In this document: positions 10,726-41,075 of the stretch, piece by piece
Numbering within the stretch: the stretch's first letter is position 1
Layout: every line of letters begins with the position of its first letter
NCBI RefSeq assembly: GCF_000317575.1
Contig: NC_019765.1
Location: 62,001 to 126,000, forward strand
Direction: 5' to 3'
DNA length: 64,000 nt
DNA from: Stanieria cyanosphaera PCC 7437
Lineage (GTDB): Bacteria; Cyanobacteriota; Cyanobacteriia; Cyanobacteriales; Xenococcaceae
Notes under the pieces: model-generated
Database searches by the model: none
What the model was told of the DNA's origin: nothing
What the model saw: the letters and a program-made list of their open reading frames with translations, nothing else
Position numbers and translations under genes: made by a program

Positions 10726-10875
10726 CTACTCATGTCTACTTCGTTGAGCCATGAGTTTCTGACGTTTCAACTGAGTCAGTTGCTGAAAACCTCCGCAGTG
10801 TTTAACTTTGGGATTTTCAGTAGAGCTAGACCCATCTACGTCTAGAGAGGACAGTTCCTGCCTTATCACACCCAT
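10726..10875 (-). CDS. small ORF of unknown function ahead of the acetyltransferase, 49 aa
   Basis: The frame starts MGVIRQELSSLDVDGSS and ends QLKRQKLMAQRSRHE, 10 nt before the acetyltransferase start. It is basic at the C-terminus. I do not recognise it and it is not a DUF1778 antitoxin. The composition and the KRQK tail recall C-terminal ends of cyanobacterial IS200/IS605 TnpB proteins, so a transposase fragment is as likely as a gene. Its position would let it be co-transcribed with the toxin. Confidence 0.3.
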   Translation of the reverse strand: MGVIRQELSSLDVDGSSSTENPKVKHCGGFQQLTQLKRQKLMAQRSRHE

Positions 10876-10969
10876 AACGCCTATAAAGCTTGCTGATTAT
10901 AAGCTTTAGTGTTGTGAATATTTTATGCAAAGCTAGAGTAGTTAGTCAAATTATATAACGCTAACCATT

Positions 10970-12283
10970 CTAGCTTGTATAGTCACAAAAAGCTCCGACT
11001 GATGGGTCGAATAAAACCTTACAAGTCCCAGTAGCACCATTGCGATTCTTCCCTACAATTACTTCCATCACTCCATTATCCTCAGTGTCCGACTTGTAAT
11101 ATTCATCTCGATAAAGCATTAAAAGAAGATCGCCGTCTTGTTCAATATCTCCACTGTCTTTCAAGGAAGCCATAGCAGGACGCTTATTACTTTGAGATTC
11201 AACACCTCGGTTAATTTGAGCTAAGACAACAAATGGTACGTTAAACTGTTTGGCAATATCCTTACAAGCCCCACTATATTTGCCGATAACTTGCGCTCTA
11301 TTCCCTGCTGCTCTGTCTCCTAGTTTCTGAATGTAGTCCAGTACAACTAATCCTAGTTCTCCTCTTTTCGATTGGATTTTCCTCAACTCAGAACGAATTT
11401 TAGCAGGGGTTAATTGTTCGGCTGGAGTGTCATTAATCTCGATGGGTAATTCAGCTAAATTACTCAAACCATTAACTAAAGAATCCATCTCATCTTCATA
11501 GATGACATTGTTCATTAATCTTTGAGAGTCAATGCCCGTGTGCATCGCTAGAAATCTCTTAGTCAACTGTTTTCTGGACATTTCAGCAGAAAAGAAGACT
11601 ACTGGCTTTTTCTCTTTAATAGCAATGTGATTAGCCAGGTAACAAGCAAACCAAGACTTCCCCATACTCGGACGTGCTGCAACAATAATTAAATCCTGTT
11701 TAGTTAAACCACCAATTAAAGAATCCAAGTCGGTTAAACCAGTAGAAAAAAGAGGTAATGAACCTTGTTCTAATTCATTGAAGATATCAGCTAGACAGTC
11801 ATTAATTGGTTCAGTAGTAAACTTATCTTTCTTATCAGTAGTTAGAGCGAAGAGCTTGGATTCAGCGAAGTCAAAGACTGTTTCTAATTCTATTGCTGTA
11901 TCGTATCCTAAATCGACTATTTCATGACCAGCAGCAATTAAACGACGACGCTGATACTTATCTAAAACCAAGAGACTGTAGCGGTCAATATTAACGGCTG
12001 ATACAGTACGATTTAACAGTTGTGCTAATTTAGTTGTACCTCCAACTTTTTCCAGTAATTTATGGTCTGATAGCCAAGTAGAAACAGTCATCAAATCTAC
12101 TTGCTTATCTTTGTGATGTAACAAGAGTGCTGCTTTGTATATCTGTTGATGAGTAGAAATAGAAAAAGCTTCTACTGGTAGAATATCAGCAACAATGGTA
12201 ATTGCCTTTGGGTCGAGTAATATTCCTCCTAAGATAGCTTCTTCAGCTTCAATGTTAGTGGGAGGTAAATGATTATCATTCAT
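10970..12283 (-). CDS. dnaB: replicative DNA helicase DnaB
   Basis: The 437-aa product has the DnaB N-terminal domain (PPTNIEAEEAILGGILLDP) and the RecA-like C-terminal domain: FSTGLTDLDSLIGGLTKQDL, Walker A AARPSMGKSW (about 205-214), VVFFSAEMSRKQLTKRFL, Walker B LGLVVLDYIQKL, VLAQINRGVE and DSGDIEQDGDLLLMLYRDEYY. No intein is present, unlike several cyanobacterial DnaB proteins. It unwinds DNA at forks. The start overlaps the upstream accessory gene by 8 nt, so it is translationally coupled to the recombinase operon, which is unusual. Confidence 0.95.
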   Translation of the reverse strand: MNDNHLPPTNIEAEEAILGGILLDPKAITIVADILPVEAFSISTHQQIYKAALLLHHKDKQVDLMTVSTWLSDHKLLEKVGGTTKLAQLLNRTVSAVNIDRYSLLVLDKYQRRRLIAAGHEIVDLGYDTAIELETVFDFAESKLFALTTDKKDKFTTEPINDCLADIFNELEQGSLPLFSTGLTDLDSLIGGLTKQDLIIVAARPSMGKSWFACYLANHIAIKEKKPVVFFSAEMSRKQLTKRFLAMHTGIDSQRLMNNVIYEDEMDSLVNGLSNLAELPIEINDTPAEQLTPAKIRSELRKIQSKRGELGLVVLDYIQKLGDRAAGNRAQVIGKYSGACKDIAKQFNVPFVVLAQINRGVESQSNKRPAMASLKDSGDIEQDGDLLLMLYRDEYYKSDTEDNGVMEVIVGKNRNGATGTCKVLFDPSVGAFCDYTS

Positions 12284-13112
12284 CTTTGTTAAAAATACTG
12301 CTTAGTTTCTTAAGTTGAGTCAAACTAACTTGTTCTTTTTGTGGTTTGTCGCCAGCCTTAACTATCTTTTGTTCGGGTTGATTTGGTTGTTGATGAATAG
12401 TTTCAGATTTAGTCCAACCTTCTTGAATTGCCTTATTCAACCAACCACCAGCATTAGGAATATCTTGTTTAGTAAGTTGGTCTTTTAAAGCTTCAATCGC
12501 ATCTAATACTATTTCATCTGAAGCTGTATGAATAGTCTTAGTCAGGGTAGGATTTAACTTAACTCCTACCACTTGTAATTGAGTCAGAATATTGGAGCTA
12601 ATATCACTCTGTTTTTTCTGATTAATTGGCGTGACTTTGGCATTAGTTAAAGATTGTTCTAACTCTTTTATTCTTGCCTTTAGGCGATTATTTTCTGCTT
12701 CTACTTGACGCAGTTCGATAACTTTACCTTGAGCTATTTCAATATGTTTTTTCAAGTCTTCGTTTTCATTACGTAACCGACGATTTTCTTGTCGTAATTT
12801 ACTAATAATTACCGCTTTAGACTTGTCTGTAGCTGGTTGAAACTGAGGAGTTTTATTTACTATTCCTCCAATAGCTGCTTTTTGTTGGTTGCGTAGTTCG
12901 GCAAGACGATTTTTAATCTCAGGATATTTATAGAGGTAGCTAACAGATAATCCTGCTGCTTCTGCTATGGCGTTAAAAGTAATAGTTTCTCCAGAATCTA
13001 AGACTTGTTGAATCGCTTTTTCCAGTCTTTCTTCTGCATCTTTTTTCTTAGCTGCTGCTGCTTTGACTAATAGCTCTGGATTGCCTTTAGAGTTGTTACT
13101 AGGGCGAGACAT
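12276..13112 (-). CDS. DUF6262/TnpC-like transposition accessory protein
   Basis: The frame is open to 13130, but ATG at 13112 has GGAGG 8-9 nt upstream and overlaps the previous stop (TAATG). The product is 278 aa. It has an N-terminal TetR-like helix-turn-helix (ITFNAIAEAAGLSVSYLYKY, about 46-65) followed by a long coiled coil (LRQENRRLRNENEDLKKHIE and EAENNRLKARIKELEQSL), then a looser tail. HTH plus coiled coil directly after two tyrosine recombinases is the TnpC pattern of Tn554-type elements, where TnpC influences orientation and efficiency of integration. The C-terminal third looks unlike typical TnpC and may contact DnaB; that is speculation. Confidence 0.75.
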   Translation of the reverse strand: MSRPSNNSKGNPELLVKAAAAKKKDAEERLEKAIQQVLDSGETITFNAIAEAAGLSVSYLYKYPEIKNRLAELRNQQKAAIGGIVNKTPQFQPATDKSKAVIISKLRQENRRLRNENEDLKKHIEIAQGKVIELRQVEAENNRLKARIKELEQSLTNAKVTPINQKKQSDISSNILTQLQVVGVKLNPTLTKTIHTASDEIVLDAIEALKDQLTKQDIPNAGGWLNKAIQEGWTKSETIHQQPNQPEQKIVKAGDKPQKEQVSLTQLKKLSSIFNKDE

Positions 13113-14785
13113 TATTCTTTCTCCTCCCATTCATTATGACCAAGACCTCTCATGGTTTTGTGTTTTTCCATTCCAGAGATAATTCTCTTGAGTCTTTCCG
13201 CTCTGGGAACGTTCTTTTCTATCTGTCTTTGATAGCCTTTTTGACGAGCATTTTCGATAATTTTTTCTGTCTCTTTTAATTCCTGTTTATGGCTATCTAA
13301 GAAGTCTAAAGTTGTTACCCAACTACCACAGCTTTTACAAGGTAAATCTTGATGGGGACAAGTCTGTGTCCAGAGTAAAGTACAGTAACCATTATCTGTA
13401 GTTTGTACTCCCATTCCTTTCTTTATCCATTGCATTTCTGCTGTGTCTAAATCAGGATTAACAGGTGCTACTATTTCACCTTCCATGTTGAAGTGGGTAT
13501 TGTCCCACACTTCTTTCATTTTCTTTTTCTGGTCGTCATTAGTCAGGTGAATATAGTGCATAGACATCGAAGGAGAAGCATGACCGCCACGCTGCATAAT
13601 GTGAGCGATGCCCATACCTTTTCTAGCTAAATCTGTTAGATGAGTATGACGAAATCTGTGGCACTTCCAAACAGGATATATTTCACCAGAAATATCAGTA
13701 ATGTTATGTTCGTGAGCCAATTGATGAAGATATCCTCTTATTAAAGGTTGTTTGATAAGTTTTTTAACAGGAATAAAATGAGAAAGTTCTCTTTTTACAC
13801 TTGCCCTTCTTTTTGGGGTATTAGTATAGGATGCAAACCATCCACTACCTTCTGTGCTGCAAAACAAATAGCTAAAATCTCTTCCTAAGTTATTTTTAAT
13901 AAACTCTTGCTGTTGTAAAATACTTTGAGCTAATTCTTTACTAATAAATAATCTGTCTTCTTTTTTAAGCTTTATTCTATATAAACTAACCCACCAATCT
14001 CCATCTGAATCTTGGCTAATACAATTTAGCTTTAAACTACATACTTCTGATATTCTCATTCCCGTTTCAATAAGAATACTAATTGCTATTTTTATTGGTT
14101 TTGGAAGAGAATCAAGATGTTGACGTATCTGTTTAATGACATCAGAAGGAATTTCTTTAATTATTTTTCTTTCAGCTTTAGGATAATCAGATTCAAAAAT
14201 TAATTGTTTACTGCTAATCTCTATGAGATTGTTAGAATTACAAAATTCAAAAAAATACTTTAATGTAGTGATAAAGATAGATAATGATTTAGATACTTTT
14301 AAGTCTTGAGAAGCATAATTAATTGCTTCAATCACTAATAATCTATCTATATCCTGCGGTTTTACTGTCGCTCTTTTTTCGGTTAAATATCGTGAAAAAC
14401 GTCTAAACTCTGTTAATTTTCTTAAAAGCTCGCTGGTGCTATATTGCGAAGAATTATACCAGATATAATCTTTCACAGTTTTTTTAAACCATTCAGGATT
14501 AATCATTGAGAAATTAGCTGTATATAAACCTCCAGTAGTTGCTTCTTTCCCAAAAACTCTTAAGTCCCATATATCATATATTCGCATTTCTTTGGGAGTA
14601 ATATCCGAAGGTAATATATCTTTAGCAGACTGTAATTTTGGATTTTTATAGAAGAAACGACCACAATCATCACATTTATATTGTTGTCTTGCTTTCGATT
14701 TTGCCCAAGTTTTTACTTTTATACTGCAACATCTAGGACAAACTATTTCTTTGTCTTTAGACTTTGATATCGATATTTTTTGCAT
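13112..14785 (-). CDS. Tn554 TnpB-like tyrosine recombinase with zinc ribbon
   Basis: The 557-aa product starts with a zinc ribbon (CPRCCSIKVKTW ... CDDCGRFF, about 17-43). It then has a SAM-like core-binding domain and a tyrosine-recombinase catalytic domain: ETGMRISEVCSLKL (first catalytic Arg), HRFRHTHLTDLARKG (HxxR), GGHASPSMSMHYIHLT (H and nucleophile Tyr). A second Cys cluster (CTLLWTQTCPHQDLPCKSCG) near the C-terminus is typical of the TnpB partner in Tn554-like triple recombinases. ATG follows the TnpA stop directly (TAAATG). It should act with TnpA in site-specific integration and excision. Confidence 0.88.
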   Translation of the reverse strand: MQKISISKSKDKEIVCPRCCSIKVKTWAKSKARQQYKCDDCGRFFYKNPKLQSAKDILPSDITPKEMRIYDIWDLRVFGKEATTGGLYTANFSMINPEWFKKTVKDYIWYNSSQYSTSELLRKLTEFRRFSRYLTEKRATVKPQDIDRLLVIEAINYASQDLKVSKSLSIFITTLKYFFEFCNSNNLIEISSKQLIFESDYPKAERKIIKEIPSDVIKQIRQHLDSLPKPIKIAISILIETGMRISEVCSLKLNCISQDSDGDWWVSLYRIKLKKEDRLFISKELAQSILQQQEFIKNNLGRDFSYLFCSTEGSGWFASYTNTPKRRASVKRELSHFIPVKKLIKQPLIRGYLHQLAHEHNITDISGEIYPVWKCHRFRHTHLTDLARKGMGIAHIMQRGGHASPSMSMHYIHLTNDDQKKKMKEVWDNTHFNMEGEIVAPVNPDLDTAEMQWIKKGMGVQTTDNGYCTLLWTQTCPHQDLPCKSCGSWVTTLDFLDSHKQELKETEKIIENARQKGYQRQIEKNVPRAERLKRIISGMEKHKTMRGLGHNEWEEKE

Positions 14786-15880
14786 TTAATCTTCCTCGCA
14801 CTTAGCTAAATACTGTTTGTAAGCAGCTTTTTGGTCTTTGTTTAACAAATGCACATAAGTATCAATTGTGGTTTGGATACTGGCATGACCTAAGCGTTCT
14901 TGAACATAAATTAAATCCATTCCTGCTCTAATTAATTCTGTAGCGTGGGTATGTCTTAATAAATGTGCTGTGGCTTCAATTCCTGTTTTTTCACTCAACC
15001 TTCTAAATAAACTTTGAGCAGTAGAATATCTCATGGGCGAACCGATTTCATTACGCCACATATTGATAAAGACATAATCAGAATCTACATCAGGAAAATC
15101 ATCATCTAAAACGTAATTTTCATAAGCTTGAATTGTTTGTCTTGGTACGCTAATAATTCTTGTTTCACCATCTTTGACTCTGGCATCATTGAGATTATCA
15201 TCACGGGGAATTACATGGATTTCATTCAATCCCATTTCACTGTGAATATCACTATGGCGTAACCCCAAAGCTTCCCCAATTCTCATACCTGAGTGATAGA
15301 GAAGTACAATTAAAAACTTGTCCCGAAGATTGGCACAATTATCAACTAAAGTTTGGACTTCTTCTTTAGTTAAACACCCAGGAAAAGTTCTAGGTTCTTT
15401 GACTTTTAATCTCTTAGTTTTTACCCTCTTATCTTTCTTCATCTCATAGAGAAGTGACTTATACCTTCTCTGGACTGGGTAGCTAGTTTGATACAGTTCT
15501 CGGCTTTCTATCCTCTGATTTCGGGCGTGAAACTCGTAAAACTGATAAATCACACTCATCATGATATTGACTGTCTTTTCCGTCCTTTTTGCCGTTTGTG
15601 GGGCAATAGAAGGAACACCAGGAATAGAATCGGGTAATTGTAGCCAGAGCATAAATTCCGCTAACTCTTTCTCCCAACATTGTGTCCAGTCGAGACTGTA
15701 AGCTTCCAAGTACTCAAAGAATAATTTCAAGTGGTGGGCGTAGTTCTTCAGCGTGTTTGGTGCTTTGCCTAACGCCATCAGGTGTTGCAGATAATCTGTG
15801 ACTGGTTCGATAGGAAGATAGTCATCACTAAGTAAAACCCAACTGGTTTGACCTCGAATATTGACCTTCTGAACTCTCAT
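14786..15880 (-). CDS. Tn554 TnpA-like tyrosine recombinase
   Basis: The frame is open to 15937, but ATG at 15880 (MRVQKVNIRGQTSW) best fits the family start. The product has a core-binding domain (YLQHLMALGKAPNTLKNYAHHL) and catalytic blocks YHSGMRIGEALGLRHSD (Arg), HLLRHTHATELIRAG (HxxR) and LGHASIQTTIDTYVHL (His and nucleophile Tyr). It is the first gene of a four-gene operon of two recombinases, a coiled-coil accessory protein and dnaB. A 9-bp inverted repeat just upstream could be an operator or part of the crossover site. Confidence 0.88.
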   Translation of the reverse strand: MRVQKVNIRGQTSWVLLSDDYLPIEPVTDYLQHLMALGKAPNTLKNYAHHLKLFFEYLEAYSLDWTQCWEKELAEFMLWLQLPDSIPGVPSIAPQTAKRTEKTVNIMMSVIYQFYEFHARNQRIESRELYQTSYPVQRRYKSLLYEMKKDKRVKTKRLKVKEPRTFPGCLTKEEVQTLVDNCANLRDKFLIVLLYHSGMRIGEALGLRHSDIHSEMGLNEIHVIPRDDNLNDARVKDGETRIISVPRQTIQAYENYVLDDDFPDVDSDYVFINMWRNEIGSPMRYSTAQSLFRRLSEKTGIEATAHLLRHTHATELIRAGMDLIYVQERLGHASIQTTIDTYVHLLNKDQKAAYKQYLAKCEED

Positions 15881-15887
15881 TATATGC

Positions 15888-15921
15888 TTTGTGTAATTAT
15901 CAAGATTTATATTTACACAAA
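15888..15921. promoter_or_regulatory. inverted repeat TTTGTGTAA ... TTACACAAA upstream of the recombinase operon
   Basis: Perfect 9-bp arms (15888-15896 and 15913-15921) flank 16 nt, starting 7 nt upstream of the recombinase start codon. Either an operator or a recombinase-binding site at the element end is possible. The spacing is longer than the 6-8 bp between core arms of classic tyrosine-recombinase sites, so an operator is slightly favoured. Confidence 0.4.
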
Positions 15922-15923
15922 AC

Positions 15924-15950
15924 GTTAAAAAAGGCAATTATCTTGCCTTT
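15924..15950 (-). terminator. rho-independent terminator after IS605 tnpB
   Basis: On the minus strand AAAGGCAA-GATAA-TTGCCTTT forms an 8-bp stem with a 5-nt loop, followed by a T-run. It sits just past the tnpB stop and would keep IS transcription from entering the recombinase operon. It may also be the right-end hairpin of the IS. Confidence 0.6.
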
Positions 15951-15974
15951 GTTGTTGTTGTTTAATATATTAAA

Positions 15975-17141
15975 TTAATGTTGTATAACCTGCCCCCTTG
16001 CCCAAGCTAAACATACTTGGGCTGCGTTAATATCTCGATCTTCAGTGTGCCGACAACTTTGATTAGAACAAACGTGAAGTCTATCACTTAAGCTTTTTTT
16101 GGTTAATTCCCAACATTTAACGCATCGCTGTGTTGGTTTTAAACTTTGAGTAGGAGCTTCGAGAAATACTCCACCAGCTTCTTTGACTTTATAAGCGATG
16201 GCATCTCTAAGCATACCTATTCCGACATCAAGCATAGAACGATTAAGACCAGTCTTCTGTCTTTTTCTTTTGCTACCAGAGGACGCTTTTCTAGTCATGT
16301 TTTTGATTTTAAGTTTCTCTGTGACAATGAGGGAATTACTCCGAACAATATCTACTGCCACTTGATGTACCCAGTTTTTACGGCGATTGGCTACTCTTTT
16401 CTTAAGTCGAGAAATTTTAGCCTGTATTTTTTTCCATCTGCTAGAGGCTTTACACTTTTTCTTTTCGGGCTTACGTTTTCTCCTTAGTTGCTTAGATAAT
16501 CGGTTTATTTGATTTTGGGTATTAGTCAAAAATTTTGATGGTTCAACCAGAATGCCGTTGCTCATAGCAACAGCCGTTTTACAACCAAAATCTATTCCAA
16601 TACTACCTTTTGCTGTTTCTCTAGTTGGCAAGCATTTAACTGTAACGCTGGCATACCATCTGCTATTGCGGTAGACAATCGTACAAGTAGTAGGTTGACC
16701 CCAAATACGAGCTTGTCCTCTCATTTGAATAATGATACCCAAGTCTCTTAATTCTAGATAACCATTTTTGCCACTGCTATGAACTTTAAAACCTTGACGA
16801 GCATCAGGGTATGTCCATCCAGAATAAGCTTTAAATGGCTTAAACTTAGGATATTTAGCTAATCCTTGAAAGAATCTAACAAAAGCAAAATCGACACGCT
16901 TTAATGTCGCTTGCAAAGAACCAGCATTTAACTCTTTGTACTCAATCCAAGTTTCTTTGAAGCCTGGTAATGATGCCTGTTGCTCAAAGTAATCTACTGA
17001 ATGAGCAAATTTTTGATATTGAGTTTTGCGGTTAGCTACTGCTGCATTATACAAGTAGGCGTGCATTCTTCTTGCCCAGAACATTTTTTGTTCTTGAGCA
17101 GTAGAAGGATAAAGCCTAAATGTAATGCGCCGTGTTAACAT
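15975..17141 (-). CDS. tnpB: IS605-type TnpB, RNA-guided nuclease
   Basis: The 388-aa product is full-length for TnpB, the ancestor-like relative of Cas12. RuvC-like residues are visible: D in SIGIDFGCKTAVAMS, E in LIVTEKLKIKNM, and D in TEDRDINAAQV. The zinc finger CVKCWELTKKS ... CSNQSC lies before the last block. The N-terminal helix MLTRRITFRLYPSTAQEQKM is typical. TnpB uses a right-end RNA (omega/reRNA) to cut the donor site and preserve the element. All key residues are present, so activity is plausible. Confidence 0.93.
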   Translation of the reverse strand: MLTRRITFRLYPSTAQEQKMFWARRMHAYLYNAAVANRKTQYQKFAHSVDYFEQQASLPGFKETWIEYKELNAGSLQATLKRVDFAFVRFFQGLAKYPKFKPFKAYSGWTYPDARQGFKVHSSGKNGYLELRDLGIIIQMRGQARIWGQPTTCTIVYRNSRWYASVTVKCLPTRETAKGSIGIDFGCKTAVAMSNGILVEPSKFLTNTQNQINRLSKQLRRKRKPEKKKCKASSRWKKIQAKISRLKKRVANRRKNWVHQVAVDIVRSNSLIVTEKLKIKNMTRKASSGSKRKRQKTGLNRSMLDVGIGMLRDAIAYKVKEAGGVFLEAPTQSLKPTQRCVKCWELTKKSLSDRLHVCSNQSCRHTEDRDINAAQVCLAWARGQVIQH

Positions 17142-17172
17142 AGTTACCCAACTGACCTGTAGCTAGTATAAC

Positions 17173-17580
17173 ATGAGACCTAACAAGGGTTCGCATTCGG
17201 TTTATTCAATTCATTTGCACTTAGTTCTAGTGACTAAATATCGTCGTAAGGTAATTACTTCTGCGATGATTGCTCGAATGACTGAAGTGTTTCAAAACAT
17301 CTGCAAGAAGAAAAAAAGCTTGATGCTTCAGTTCGATGGAGAATCAGATCACGTGCATCTTTTAATCGATCTTCACCCCGACAACAATATCTCTCAACTG
17401 GTAGCTAGTCTCAAAAGCGCATCTAGTAGAATAATTAGAAAAGAATTTGAAACTGAAGTCTCGAAAACCTATTCCAAACCTGTATTTTGGTCTGGCTCGT
17501 ACTATGTCGCTTCCTGTGGTGGCGTAACGATAGAAAGACTGAGGAAGTATATCGATGAACAAGATACTCCCTTAGACTAA
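17173..17580 (+). CDS. tnpA: IS200/IS605 Y1 transposase TnpA
   Basis: The 135-aa product contains the HUH motif (HVHLLIDLHP) and a C-terminal helix with the nucleophile Tyr in the ERLRKYIDEQ region or in SGSYYVASCGG; the former helix matches the usual Y-x3-Q-like position. Family length is about 130-155 aa, so it is complete. It catalyses single-strand peel-and-paste transposition. It diverges from tnpB, with 31 nt holding both start regions. Confidence 0.92.
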   Translation: MRPNKGSHSVYSIHLHLVLVTKYRRKVITSAMIARMTEVFQNICKKKKSLMLQFDGESDHVHLLIDLHPDNNISQLVASLKSASSRIIRKEFETEVSKTYSKPVFWSGSYYVASCGGVTIERLRKYIDEQDTPLD

Positions 17581-17628
17581 TTCTCGGGCATCGAGCCGTC
17601 GAATTAGTTCGCTATTCCGAGGGGCTGT

Positions 17629-17692
17629 GGGCTGAATTCACTTCAGCCCTTTATAAGCCCCGTTCCCTACCCTACTTCGTTGAGGGTAGGGA
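17629..17692. repeat. subterminal hairpins of the IS605-type element
   Basis: Two hairpins lie downstream of tnpA: GGGCTGAA ... TTCAGCCC (17629-17649) and TCCCTACCC ... GGGTAGGGA (17664-17692, 9-bp arms). Imperfect hairpins next to the ends are what Y1 transposases recognise. They mark the left end of the IS. Confidence 0.55.
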
Positions 17693-17746
17693 CACTCGCG
17701 AGAAAGTTGTATTTTTTGTCGTAATGCGCGTTCGCGATTCGGATTT

Positions 17747-22455: not shown

Positions 22456-23091
22456 ATGGCAGTTATTACTTTAAAAGAGCTAGTTTCTCTCAATCGACAA
22501 CATTCTTCTCCTCTAGCTAACTTTCAAACTTCAAAGCAAACAATACAACAACAGCAGTTTCAATTACTAGTCAGACAAAAGCGAATGGGTTTAAACATCA
22601 AACCCTTACTCAATCCTCAGCTTGCTCTTTGGCTCGAACAGCTTGAAAGTTTTATTCCTGGAATATTTGAGTCGCGTAAAAAAATTTATCTCGACAGTAG
22701 ATGGAAAGCCCAACTTAAAATAGATGAAGCCAATTACTGGCTTGAAGTTCCGATTAATGCTGGAGTAGTTAAGACCAAAGTTCGGCTTTATGAATGGAGA
22801 ATTGGCAGTGCCAAACTCAACTGGAGCGACAGGGTCAAGCTTTGGGTAGCCTGCCGATATCTTCATCTTCAATATCAACCCGAAGATTTATGGATGGTTA
22901 TTTGTGCTTTTTCATCCCAACATAATAGTTATATTCAAAAACTATGCTGGAATCAAAAAGATGACCGTACCATCGAACGAGAACTAATATCCTTACTTTC
23001 AGAAGATACTTTAAAAAGTCCTCCCCAGCAAGTAGATAAATATTGCCAATACTTAACTAATTTCGATGAAATCGAAGAAATAAAGTTGTGA
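22456..23091 (+). CDS. hypothetical protein, 211 aa
   Basis: I do not recognise the family. The N-terminal 60 residues are Gln-rich and basic (SKQTIQQQQFQLLVRQKRMG). The centre contains an alpha/beta segment with Trp-rich text (EWRIGSAKLNWSDRVKLWVA), and the C-terminus is acidic. Alternating strands and charged residues are compatible with a nucleic-acid-processing domain, but no catalytic motif is clear. It carries a copy of the shared motif, so it probably belongs with the helicase, clamp and glycosylase genes. Confidence 0.7.
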   Translation: MAVITLKELVSLNRQHSSPLANFQTSKQTIQQQQFQLLVRQKRMGLNIKPLLNPQLALWLEQLESFIPGIFESRKKIYLDSRWKAQLKIDEANYWLEVPINAGVVKTKVRLYEWRIGSAKLNWSDRVKLWVACRYLHLQYQPEDLWMVICAFSSQHNSYIQKLCWNQKDDRTIERELISLLSEDTLKSPPQQVDKYCQYLTNFDEIEEIKL

Positions 23092-23094
23092 CAA

Positions 23095-23245
23095 ACCCAC
23101 AGGGTAAACCCGTGTAGGCTTCCTACTTCGACGATACTTGACTAGACATAGCTATTGCCGTATCCCCGTCAGCGGTATCTCCATAGGCTAACACCGCCCG
23201 TCCCGTCGCCTAAAGGCAAGACGAGTATTCTCACTCGCAGATATA
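23095..23245 (+). ncRNA. structured RNA relic resembling a HEARO/omega RNA
   Basis: The segment between two ORFs is GC-richer than its surroundings and folds well by eye: CACAGGGT-AA-ACCCGTG, then GGCTTCCTACTTCGACG, then CGTC-GCCT-AA-AGGC-AA-GACG near the 3' end, followed by CTCACTCGCAG. From memory this resembles the HEARO RNAs found upstream of IscB-like genes, or other IS200/IS605-superfamily guide RNAs, in cyanobacteria. No IscB or TnpB gene follows, so it would be an orphan left after loss of the nuclease. The family call needs a covariance search. Confidence 0.5.
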
Positions 23246-23397
23246 AAAAAGCATTTTTCTTTTACAGCAATTTAGATCGATGTCACAGCTATCAAATACT
23301 CGATCTAGTTAGATAGGAATTGTAACTTGGCGAGCGATAAAGCTATGTCGAACGAGCTTCTCGTCAGAAACGTCTATTGCCCACGCTAAACACCACA

Positions 23398-23880
23398 ATG
23401 AATTTACCACAAGATAAATACGTCTACTCTGGAAAAGCTGCCGCTCTTCTTGAGGTTAGTAATAAAACCTTAATTAAATGGGTCAAACAAGGACATATAA
23501 ATTGCCTCAGACAGGGAAAAAATCGCAAGTTTTCCCTAGCAGAAATAGAAAAGTTTAAACAAAGTTCTTTCTACCGCAGTCGAAATCCAAAGTTTACCTT
23601 GATTTATGTTCGTGCCGAAAACAGTTTAGAAAGGAGAAATTTAGTAGAAAAAGCTAGAGATTATTGTCAACGAAATAGCTGGACGGAAATAGCTATCTCT
23701 GAATCAACTCAACCCCAAAATTGTCTGAATACTCTATATTTTCAACAAGCTTTCAACTATTTCTTTGAAAGAAAAATAGAAAGACTAATATGTTGTAAAA
23801 ACCAGGATGAAGTCAGTCGTTTTTTTAGCACTTTAGTCAAACATCGAGGTATAGAGGTTTTAGATTTACTTAATCTTTAA
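23398..23880 (+). CDS. IS607 TnpA-like protein with MerR-type HTH, probably catalytically dead
   Basis: ATG at 23398 (MNLPQDKYVYSGKAA) fits best. Residues 10-50 form the MerR/excisionase HTH of IS607 recombinases (AALLEVSNKTLIKWVKQGHI, KFSLAEIEKF). A resolvase-like domain follows, where the usual IYARVSSxxQ reads IYVRAENSLERRNLVEKARD: the catalytic Ser in its standard position is replaced. The length of 160 aa is also short. It may be a decayed transposase or a repurposed DNA-binding regulator. It lies just after the orphan structured RNA, suggesting a shared mobile-element past. Confidence 0.65.
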   Translation: MNLPQDKYVYSGKAAALLEVSNKTLIKWVKQGHINCLRQGKNRKFSLAEIEKFKQSSFYRSRNPKFTLIYVRAENSLERRNLVEKARDYCQRNSWTEIAISESTQPQNCLNTLYFQQAFNYFFERKIERLICCKNQDEVSRFFSTLVKHRGIEVLDLLNL

Positions 23881-39842: not shown

Positions 39843-41075
39843 CTATTTGGGTTTCTGTTTCTTTCTCTTTCGAGTTTTCCGCAACTGCCCACGCGAAAGG
39901 CGAGTGGGGGAAACCCCCAAGACCGCACTCGCTCCTTTAACACTATGGTTATCAGGTCTTATGTCCGCTCCACAGACGATCACTGCGAGTCCCGCAGCGA
40001 GTATGTTTTTTGCAGCGTTGATGTCCCTGTCAATGCCTATTGTCATACAGCTAGGGCAGTCCCAACTGCGAACATTCAAAGGCAATTTTTCAATTACGAA
40101 ACCGCATTGACATCGTTTGCTGCTTGGAAAAAAGCGGTCAATCTTGACCAGTTTTCGTCCGTACCACTCGCACTTATATTCCAGTTGCGCTCGCATCTCA
40201 CCCCAAGCTGCATCGCTAATCGAACGAGCCAGCTTACGGTTTTTGACCATGTTTCTAACTGCCAAGTCTTCAATAGCTATCAGGCTATTAGACTGAACCA
40301 AGCGAGTAGTCAATTTGTGCAGAAAATCAGTACGAGCATCTTTTATTTTGGCGTGTATTCGAGCTACTTTAAGTCGCGCTTTTTCTCGGTTTCTAGAGCC
40401 TTTGGTTTTCCGACTCAGTTCCTTTTGCGCTGCTTTGAGCTTTTTATACAGCCGATTAAAATGTTTTGGGTTAACTATCTTCTCACCATCGCTGGTACTG
40501 ACAAGACTGGTAACTCCAGCATCCAACCCAATCTTTTTGTCTGTTGGTGGAAGTACCTCTACGGTATAGTCATCAACCAACAAAGATACGAACCATCTAC
40601 CAGAGGGTTCGAGTTTAACAGTAACAGTCGAAGGTTCACATCCTTGAGGAATATACCTCGACCAAACTATATTCAATGGTTCTTCGCATTTAGCTAACCA
40701 AAGCTTACCTTCCTTGTAGCGAAAAGCTGCTTTGGTAAACTCTGCCGAACCACCGTTACGTTTTTTCTTGAACCGAGGGTAATTAGCTCTTTTACTCCAA
40801 AAGTTAGAAAAAGCTTTTTGCAAATGTCTCAAACATTGCTGCAAAGGTACACTGCTAACTTCATTAAGAAACTGCAAGTCTTCGGTTTTCTTCCAGTTAG
40901 TCAGCAAGCCAGAGGTTTGCTTATAGTCAACCCTTTCTTGTTTGCTATACCAAGCTTCGGTTCTTGCAGCCAGAGCTTTGTTATAGACCAAACGAACACA
41001 ACCCATTGTCCGTCGCAGGAGATTTTCTTGCTCGGCAGTTGGGTAAAATCGGTATTTGAAAGCACGTTCGGTCAT
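39843..41075 (-). CDS. tnpB: TnpB, RNA-guided nuclease (IS1341/IS605 type)
   Basis: The 410-aa product is complete. It shows the N-terminal MTERAFKYRFYPTAEQENLL, RuvC-like D in KIGLDAGVTSLVSTSDG, E in LIAIEDLAVRNMVKN, the zinc finger CQCGFVIEKLPLN ... CPSC, and the last D in IGIDRDINAAKNI. An Arg/Lys-rich tail ends it. The nuclease would use the right-end RNA to cut empty donor sites. It is unlike the other TnpB in this window (388 aa) at the residue level, so the two are separate arrivals. Confidence 0.93.
   Translation of the reverse strand: MTERAFKYRFYPTAEQENLLRRTMGCVRLVYNKALAARTEAWYSKQERVDYKQTSGLLTNWKKTEDLQFLNEVSSVPLQQCLRHLQKAFSNFWSKRANYPRFKKKRNGGSAEFTKAAFRYKEGKLWLAKCEEPLNIVWSRYIPQGCEPSTVTVKLEPSGRWFVSLLVDDYTVEVLPPTDKKIGLDAGVTSLVSTSDGEKIVNPKHFNRLYKKLKAAQKELSRKTKGSRNREKARLKVARIHAKIKDARTDFLHKLTTRLVQSNSLIAIEDLAVRNMVKNRKLARSISDAAWGEMRAQLEYKCEWYGRKLVKIDRFFPSSKRCQCGFVIEKLPLNVRSWDCPSCMTIGIDRDINAAKNILAAGLAVIVCGADIRPDNHSVKGASAVLGVSPTRLSRGQLRKTRKRKKQKPK

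Follow-up and report, generated by a model that had tools for sequence, protein, structure and literature searches.

The window analysed here (the whole 64,000-nt stretch, G000:C4:62001-126000) lies within a 309-kb contig of the Stanieria cyanosphaera PCC 7437 genome (5.54 Mb, six contigs) and encodes, among others, a conjugation coupling protein. A short element with a G+C content of 0.529, compared with 0.367 for the window, is situated between the ORFs at 22456-23091 and 23377-23880 and overlaps the former by that ORF's last 4 nt; equally GC-rich stretches of 155 nt numbered 25 among 12,769 (step 5, those overlapping the element counted). A first-pass annotation, made from the letters alone, had placed an orphan structured RNA at 23095-23245, with hairpins and without a nuclease gene after it. 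The GC-richer structured stretch is real (covariance E 2.2e-28), but the inserted unit runs from 23088 to 23242 and has its sense on the minus strand (Table 1). The lack of a nuclease ORF directly behind it was borne out, since the nearest TnpB genes of the window (15975-17141 and 39969-41066) are at least 6 kb off. A Stanieria plasmid, identical over 85 bp outside the element, was the sole PLSDB record matched at the DNA level by the neighbourhood, and no published title on the 155-bp element was found in the literature searched.

Table 1. Features at the locus, in window positions
Feature	Position	Strand	Basis or remark
Upstream ORF, 211 aa	22456..23091	+	homologues L091, L092
Putative 16-nt guide, AACTTTATTTCTTCGA	23072..23087	-	antisense to the end of ORF 22456-23091; placed by reRNA analogy
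Whole inserted mini-element, 155 bp	23088..23242 (bounds +/-1 nt)	-	left end plus TnpB omega-RNA scaffold/right end
TnpB omega-RNA (reRNA) scaffold/right end, 116 nt	23088..23203	-	covariance model R1
Right-end hairpin, GCCTACACGGGTTTACCCTGTGGGTTT	23093..23119	-	arm-swap test
Residual tnpB 3' coding end, 26 codons plus stop (GRAVLAYGDTADGDTAIAMSSQVSSK, then stop)	23123..23203	-	tblastn
Left end (LE), about 39 nt	23204..23242	-	GAATAC motif and hairpin; left-end comparison with TnpB elements
TTTAT, target/TAM-like pentamer	23243..23247	-	directly 5' of the left end; sequence

ORF 23377-23880 encodes an IS607-TnpA-like protein with HTH_17 (NF033518, E 2e-6, 27 bits against a cut-off of 110), in whose resolvase part, read by eye, the catalytic serine is apparently missing (YVRAEN; YVRGKN in L092). 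Its homologue follows the homologue of ORF 22456 in L092 and, in an interrupted form, in L091, so that it may be a domesticated, inactive recombinase. A block of about 7 kb (10754-17715) has ORFs for a DnaB-like helicase and a coiled-coil-like protein (read by eye), genes for two tyrosine recombinases, and a Y1 TnpA along with an IS605 TnpB. The genome contains two more near-complete copies of this block, at 98.8% and 97.6%; a third (97.4%) spans 10819-16375 only and has a different tnpB/tnpA end. The block has the appearance of a composite mobile element with an IS605 module that is carried along and exchanged. The 16-mer TCGCCTAAAGGCAAGA, shared with L003-L006, was rejected as a marker of further LE copies; its place, in the window at least, is within an ORF of the 7-kb repeat. 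The TnpB encoded at 39969-41066 (minus strand) is of the IS200 type, without inner stops, and its score equals that of C1:3918916-3920016. Elsewhere in the same genome, L002 1490-1985 (G000:C1:287541-288036) is a second, apparently tnpB-less LE-to-RE stretch, and parts near both of its ends match sequences that flank a TnpB fragment (C1:3613482-3614175) on the two sides.

The bounds of the element were obtained by comparison with empty sites. Homologues of ORF 22456-23091 occur in three other genomes among 27. In two of these (L091 and L092) the gene end is unbroken, reading GTAAAGTTATAAAAAAGCAGG, whereas the window has the flanks AATAAAGTT and ATAAAAAAGCA, in which GTT is followed by 155 bp and then by ATAAAAAAGCA. 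The third genome (L090) diverges past the gene end and is uninformative, and plasmid homologues of the upstream gene (15 records, each below 60% identity) were left out of the comparison. Relative to the empty sites, the insert is without a target-site duplication; on the minus strand it follows TTTAT immediately, its position being ambiguous by 1 nt. The end of the ORF was turned by the insertion from TTA TAA into TTG TGA, and the protein end (Leu-stop) is the same. IS200/IS605 elements are likewise found 3' of a fixed short target without duplication; in addition, the presence of LE and RE hairpins in a unit too short for a transposase corresponds to an ends-only derivative (PATE). By analogy with the TTGAT pentamer described for ISDra2 (PMC8612924), we infer a role as TAM for TTTAT.

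The block was detected by DNA search in 9 of 27 family genomes, the window's own counted, and an order-wide search gave matches in 14 of 291 genomes (E<=0.01, several of them short); the window's relatives are Xenococcaceae cyanobacteria. In L009, L010, L012, L021, L022 and L062, an open TnpB gene that reads in the window's minus sense ends in the block, and in the first five of these the open parent-type tnpB comprises 381-389 codons counted from RRAY; tnpB is truncated at the 5' end in L011, and in L008 the contig end is reached. In most relatives the C-terminus of TnpB reads SSQVSSK, followed after the stop by about 36 nt that contain a hairpin and end in GTCAC. A scan of named genomes, which was prefiltered by pattern and reaches mainly close relatives, returned 22 loci, those at 88-100% identity to the L010 protein being Xenococcaceae MAGs and Hyella patelloides; the next nearest were from Waterburya (68%, residues 2-303), a Shewanellaceae MAG (64%, in pieces) and Methylobacter (58%). 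In other genomes, tnpB-less copies (L061/L013, L024, L014 and L016) are 3' pieces of varying length, which fits decay. As for variants of the parent-type tnpB 3' end, L063, L066 and L023 share a short inserted sequence, GC-rich at its ends, that lies upstream of the block; it is preceded by a zinc-finger part in L063 and L066, L023 shows the right part only, and L066 has another palindrome within the right-end hairpin. For L065, the examination covered only the 300 nt upstream.

Read along the minus strand, the element starts with the LE hairpin and continues from 23203 with the final 116 nt of the parent type. The tnpB tail is retained in frame with its stop and is 77% identical to residues 352-381 of the L010 TnpB (tblastn, E 5e-8), the match reaching 23215 and crossing a stop in the left-end part; a genome search with the parent-type TnpB gave the remnant at 74% over residues 351-381. 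The tnpB stop is followed by the right-end hairpin and the terminal GTCAC. At the other end, the window has TTATA, 9 nt and GAGAATAC, a combination found at no other place in the window, and the pattern TTTAT-N10-GRGAATAC, sought on both strands of the 64 kb, matched this LE only. The same spacing is seen in L010, L012, L021 and L022, where TTATA and 9 nt precede GGGAATAC (GRGAATAC being the pattern common to them and the window), followed in the TnpB elements of L010, L012 and L021 by a hairpin. Among the six loci where a parent-type tnpB is open, four show motif and spacing; the motif was not found in L009 and lies at the locus edge in L062. Of the three strings quoted in the first-pass annotation, CACAGGGTAAACCCGTG proved to be the right-end hairpin and CGTCGCCTAAAGGCAAGACG the LE hairpin, both with their sense on the opposite strand, while the third forms no hairpin itself.

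The LE hairpin (CTCGTC-TT-GCC-TTTA-GGC-GACGGG, its foot extending into the joint) has a near-identical counterpart, preceded by GAGAATTC, in L015 and L025 (84% over 48 nt for L015). These two are left ends of another TnpB family and came from the short matches (20-49 nt) of the order-wide DNA search (L015-L020 and L025), among which L016 is a 3' fragment and L017-L020 were left out of the follow-up. Because the LE of the window is nearest in sequence to that different family, a hybrid origin of the element is conceivable. It could even be supposed that two unrelated elements adjoin here, namely the LE of one IS605 family and the separately truncated RE of another, since the LE hairpin is nearer to the left ends of L015/L025 and L002 than to parent-type ones. 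This is unlikely, given that the empty sites define one unit of 155 bp, bordered by TTTAT on one side and by GTCAC on the other, and that the LE agrees with parent-type left ends in both its GAATAC motif and its 9-nt spacing. The LE and the 116-nt part join within GGGA/GGA, which is plausibly a short-repeat deletion joint.

A covariance model (R1), built without the window sequence, matched 23217-23088 on the minus strand with 120 bits (E 2.2e-28, 112 kb searched), and the element was recovered at E 1.1e-26 when the whole genome was searched. The folding z was -2.41 for the minus strand and -0.73 for the plus strand; folding by itself is weak evidence, in which the minus strand is favoured. 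An RNA from the plus strand was rejected, as its fold is weaker than that of the minus strand and the sense of the homologues is minus; folded as single-stranded DNA, the element is unexceptional (z -0.57). The decisive evidence for the predicted structured element is comparative. In the consensus fold of eight TnpB-linked copies, nine of 38 pairs are changed on both sides, a number matched by one of 500 shuffles, and the covariation score was matched by none of 500; paired cells amount to 95.4% versus 33-42% in slid versions. The number of further pair types, reached in 37 of 500 shuffles, is a weak control. The right-end hairpin accounts for six of the nine double changes, helix 4 for two and helix 3 for one, with none in helices 1 and 2, and the inner structure is therefore supported by few variable pairs.

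Because the terminal hairpin was partly off by one alignment column, the right-end hairpin was tested separately by swapping arms among 17 copies; L066, whose hairpin carries an insert, was left out. Arms with their own partner gave a mean of -13.9 kcal/mol versus -7.9 kcal/mol when swapped (0 of 20,000 permutations, a figure that is not an exact probability because the copies are related), and two of the 17, L024 and L014, were exceptions without the usual hairpin fold. The pairing of the right-end hairpin is conserved across copies through compensatory change, as the first-pass annotation had surmised. In the window, by a hand-placed row, 35 of the 38 consensus pairs are retained, and the three lost ones all belong to helix 1, which is cut by the joint with its 5' arm deleted. 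The terminal GUC and the upstream GAC, which would be pseudoknot partners by analogy with ISDra2, are invariant in all eight TnpB-linked copies. As in a reRNA, the structured part overlaps the tnpB 3' end and the RE, and its structure is conserved.

Standalone omega RNAs for IscB exist in Ktedonobacter. A HEARO/IscB-type or IS605-type guide RNA, either a relic or acting in trans, had been proposed for the stretch at first pass, and the second assignment stood: the element is an IS605-type orphan scaffold whose relatives are TnpB-only. The reading as a HEARO (RF02033)/IscB omega RNA, relic or trans-acting, was rejected and deserves hardly any credence. It drew on the general look of the hairpins at first pass, the likeness being one of the OMEGA-type idea only, and the relatives encode TnpB and carry the RNA at the tnpB 3' end. 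The covariance search that had been suggested for HEARO gave no match in the window and none genome-wide at E<=1, although this genome search is without a strong positive control because the same search was over the cut-off in none of 14 control genomes. No Rfam family reached its gathering score over the window; at E<=10, two chance microRNA matches fell within 22900-23500, both outside the element, and Rfam gave one chance match only on L002, L009, L010, L012, L021, L022 and L025.

With respect to present activity, 48 matches to PF07282 (TnpB zinc-finger family) were found in the genome, 45 of them above the cut-off, together with 17 Y1 transposase matches. The parent-type TnpB matched 39 places at E<=1e-5, the window remnant among them; the best full-length resident TnpBs are 52% identical, and a higher value, 57%, comes from a 106-residue piece of an interrupted gene. 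The resident right ends, fetched for 30 of the 48 places, belong to other types, among which TAGGAAGCCC-hairpin-GGGTACTTCAC, ending in GTCAA, comes nearest. R1 had one strong match in the genome, the element itself, and weak ones (E 0.02 and 0.07) beside stop-interrupted tnpB genes. A cognate TnpB was not found in the genome, where full-length identity is at most 52%, the right end differs and there is no close RNA. A search of both strands over 22950-23550 gave no sigma-70-like promoter (mean of 1.1 in shuffles), and the LE hairpin scores as one terminator-like site on the minus strand. The only exact genome copy of the putative 16-nt guide is its own flank; matches elsewhere have two mismatches and stay below the control level, 15 in all with its own flank included versus 33 for the reversed pattern.

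These results bear on a reading that shares the anatomy given above and differs in present activity only, in which the remnant is a working guide-RNA parasite, its omega RNA being used by a TnpB in trans to cut plasmids without the insertion and so to keep itself. The 116 nt retained equal the scaffold length in the ISDra2 structure, whose 5'-trimmed form is reported to be still active (PMC10097598); 35 of 38 pairs survive, guide and TTTAT match the empty site, and TnpB-family genes are plentiful in the genome. However, the nearest full-length resident TnpBs (52%) have a different right end, the RNA relatives are weak and stand beside stop-interrupted genes, a promoter-like site is absent, and the other orphans retain pieces of varying, often shorter length. 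We consider such a parasite improbable. There is likewise little chance that a nuclease-less mini-element, with a complete scaffold between TnpA-recognised ends, maintains itself on the conjugation-gene plasmid with a borrowed TnpB, which would come from another replicon or be met at conjugation and would cut element-less copies. Trans action with a resident TnpB is possible and unsupported. The element, which occurs once in its genome, is held to be a relic because there is no close TnpB or RNA, guide target or promoter, and because the pieces elsewhere resemble decay. Of the two fates offered at first pass, relic is thus the probable one, and the trans role found no support, as a cognate TnpB was not detected in the genome.

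The element is, in all probability, a PATE-like derivative that arose by internal deletion from a TnpB-only (IS1341-type) member of the IS200/IS605 superfamily. The orphan is the fused ends of a small IS605-type element, from which the nuclease gene was deleted and the guide-RNA scaffold was left. Its 155 bp interrupt the end of a conserved gene just 3' of TTTAT, with no target sequence duplicated, and consist of the LE hairpin and, fused to it, the last 116 nt of tnpB/right end. The parent element would have moved as single-stranded DNA by a Y1 TnpA in trans, and tnpB may have been lost, before or after landing, through deletion between the short GGGA/GGA repeats. If the minus strand is transcribed, the remnant would be a TnpB omega RNA with a guide matching the donor joint (the empty site). 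Since no cognate TnpB was detected in the genome, the remnant is most likely without effect at present, apart from possible passive mobilisation, which would proceed via the two end hairpins; it is possibly still excisable by a Y1 transposase, and guide activity in trans has a small chance. The mini-element, as a single copy in its genome, gives no sign of mobility of its own, and the nearness of the LE to the L015/L025 family, the lack of a promoter-like site and the LE motif in only four of six parent loci are counter-points to the derivation as a whole. The case illustrates how empty sites can delimit such an orphan "structured RNA" to the nucleotide, and how the TnpB family behind it can be recognised. 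A natural minimal test object (LE, 116-nt scaffold and RE) is thereby available for whether TnpB guide RNAs serve nuclease-less elements in trans, although as matters stand it is an explained relic.

The element is a known kind of genomic relic and not a new RNA class, though an unusually clean case. An ends-only IS605 element of 271 nt, present in one copy, was described in Halanaerobium hydrogeniformans, consisting of a 28-nt LE hairpin, the last 58 nt of tnpB and a complete RE (PMC7290912). The two are alike in copy number, in the order of LE, tnpB end and RE, and in the absence of tnpA and most of tnpB. They differ in host and family, in that the piece is not presented as a guide RNA in that paper's description of the element, and in that the bounds in the window are fixed by empty sites. 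In Haloquadratum walsbyi, some PATEs were reported to derive from IS605-type elements by repeat-mediated deletion of the core; those PATEs are multi-copy, whereas the element of the window is single-copy in its genome (PMC3119063). The reRNA of ISDra2 TnpB is formed from the tnpB 3' end and the RE, its guide is flanking DNA, and a TTGAT pentamer lies 5' of the target, and a model of donor-joint cutting was proposed (PMC8612924); the scaffold in the structure measures 116 nt, and a 5'-trimmed form was active (PMC10097598). In lengths and positions, the remnant appears to resemble this system in its tnpB 3' end plus RE, its putative flank guide, its pentamer 5' of the target and its 116-nt scaffold, and it differs in lacking tnpB and in having TTTAT instead of TTGAT.
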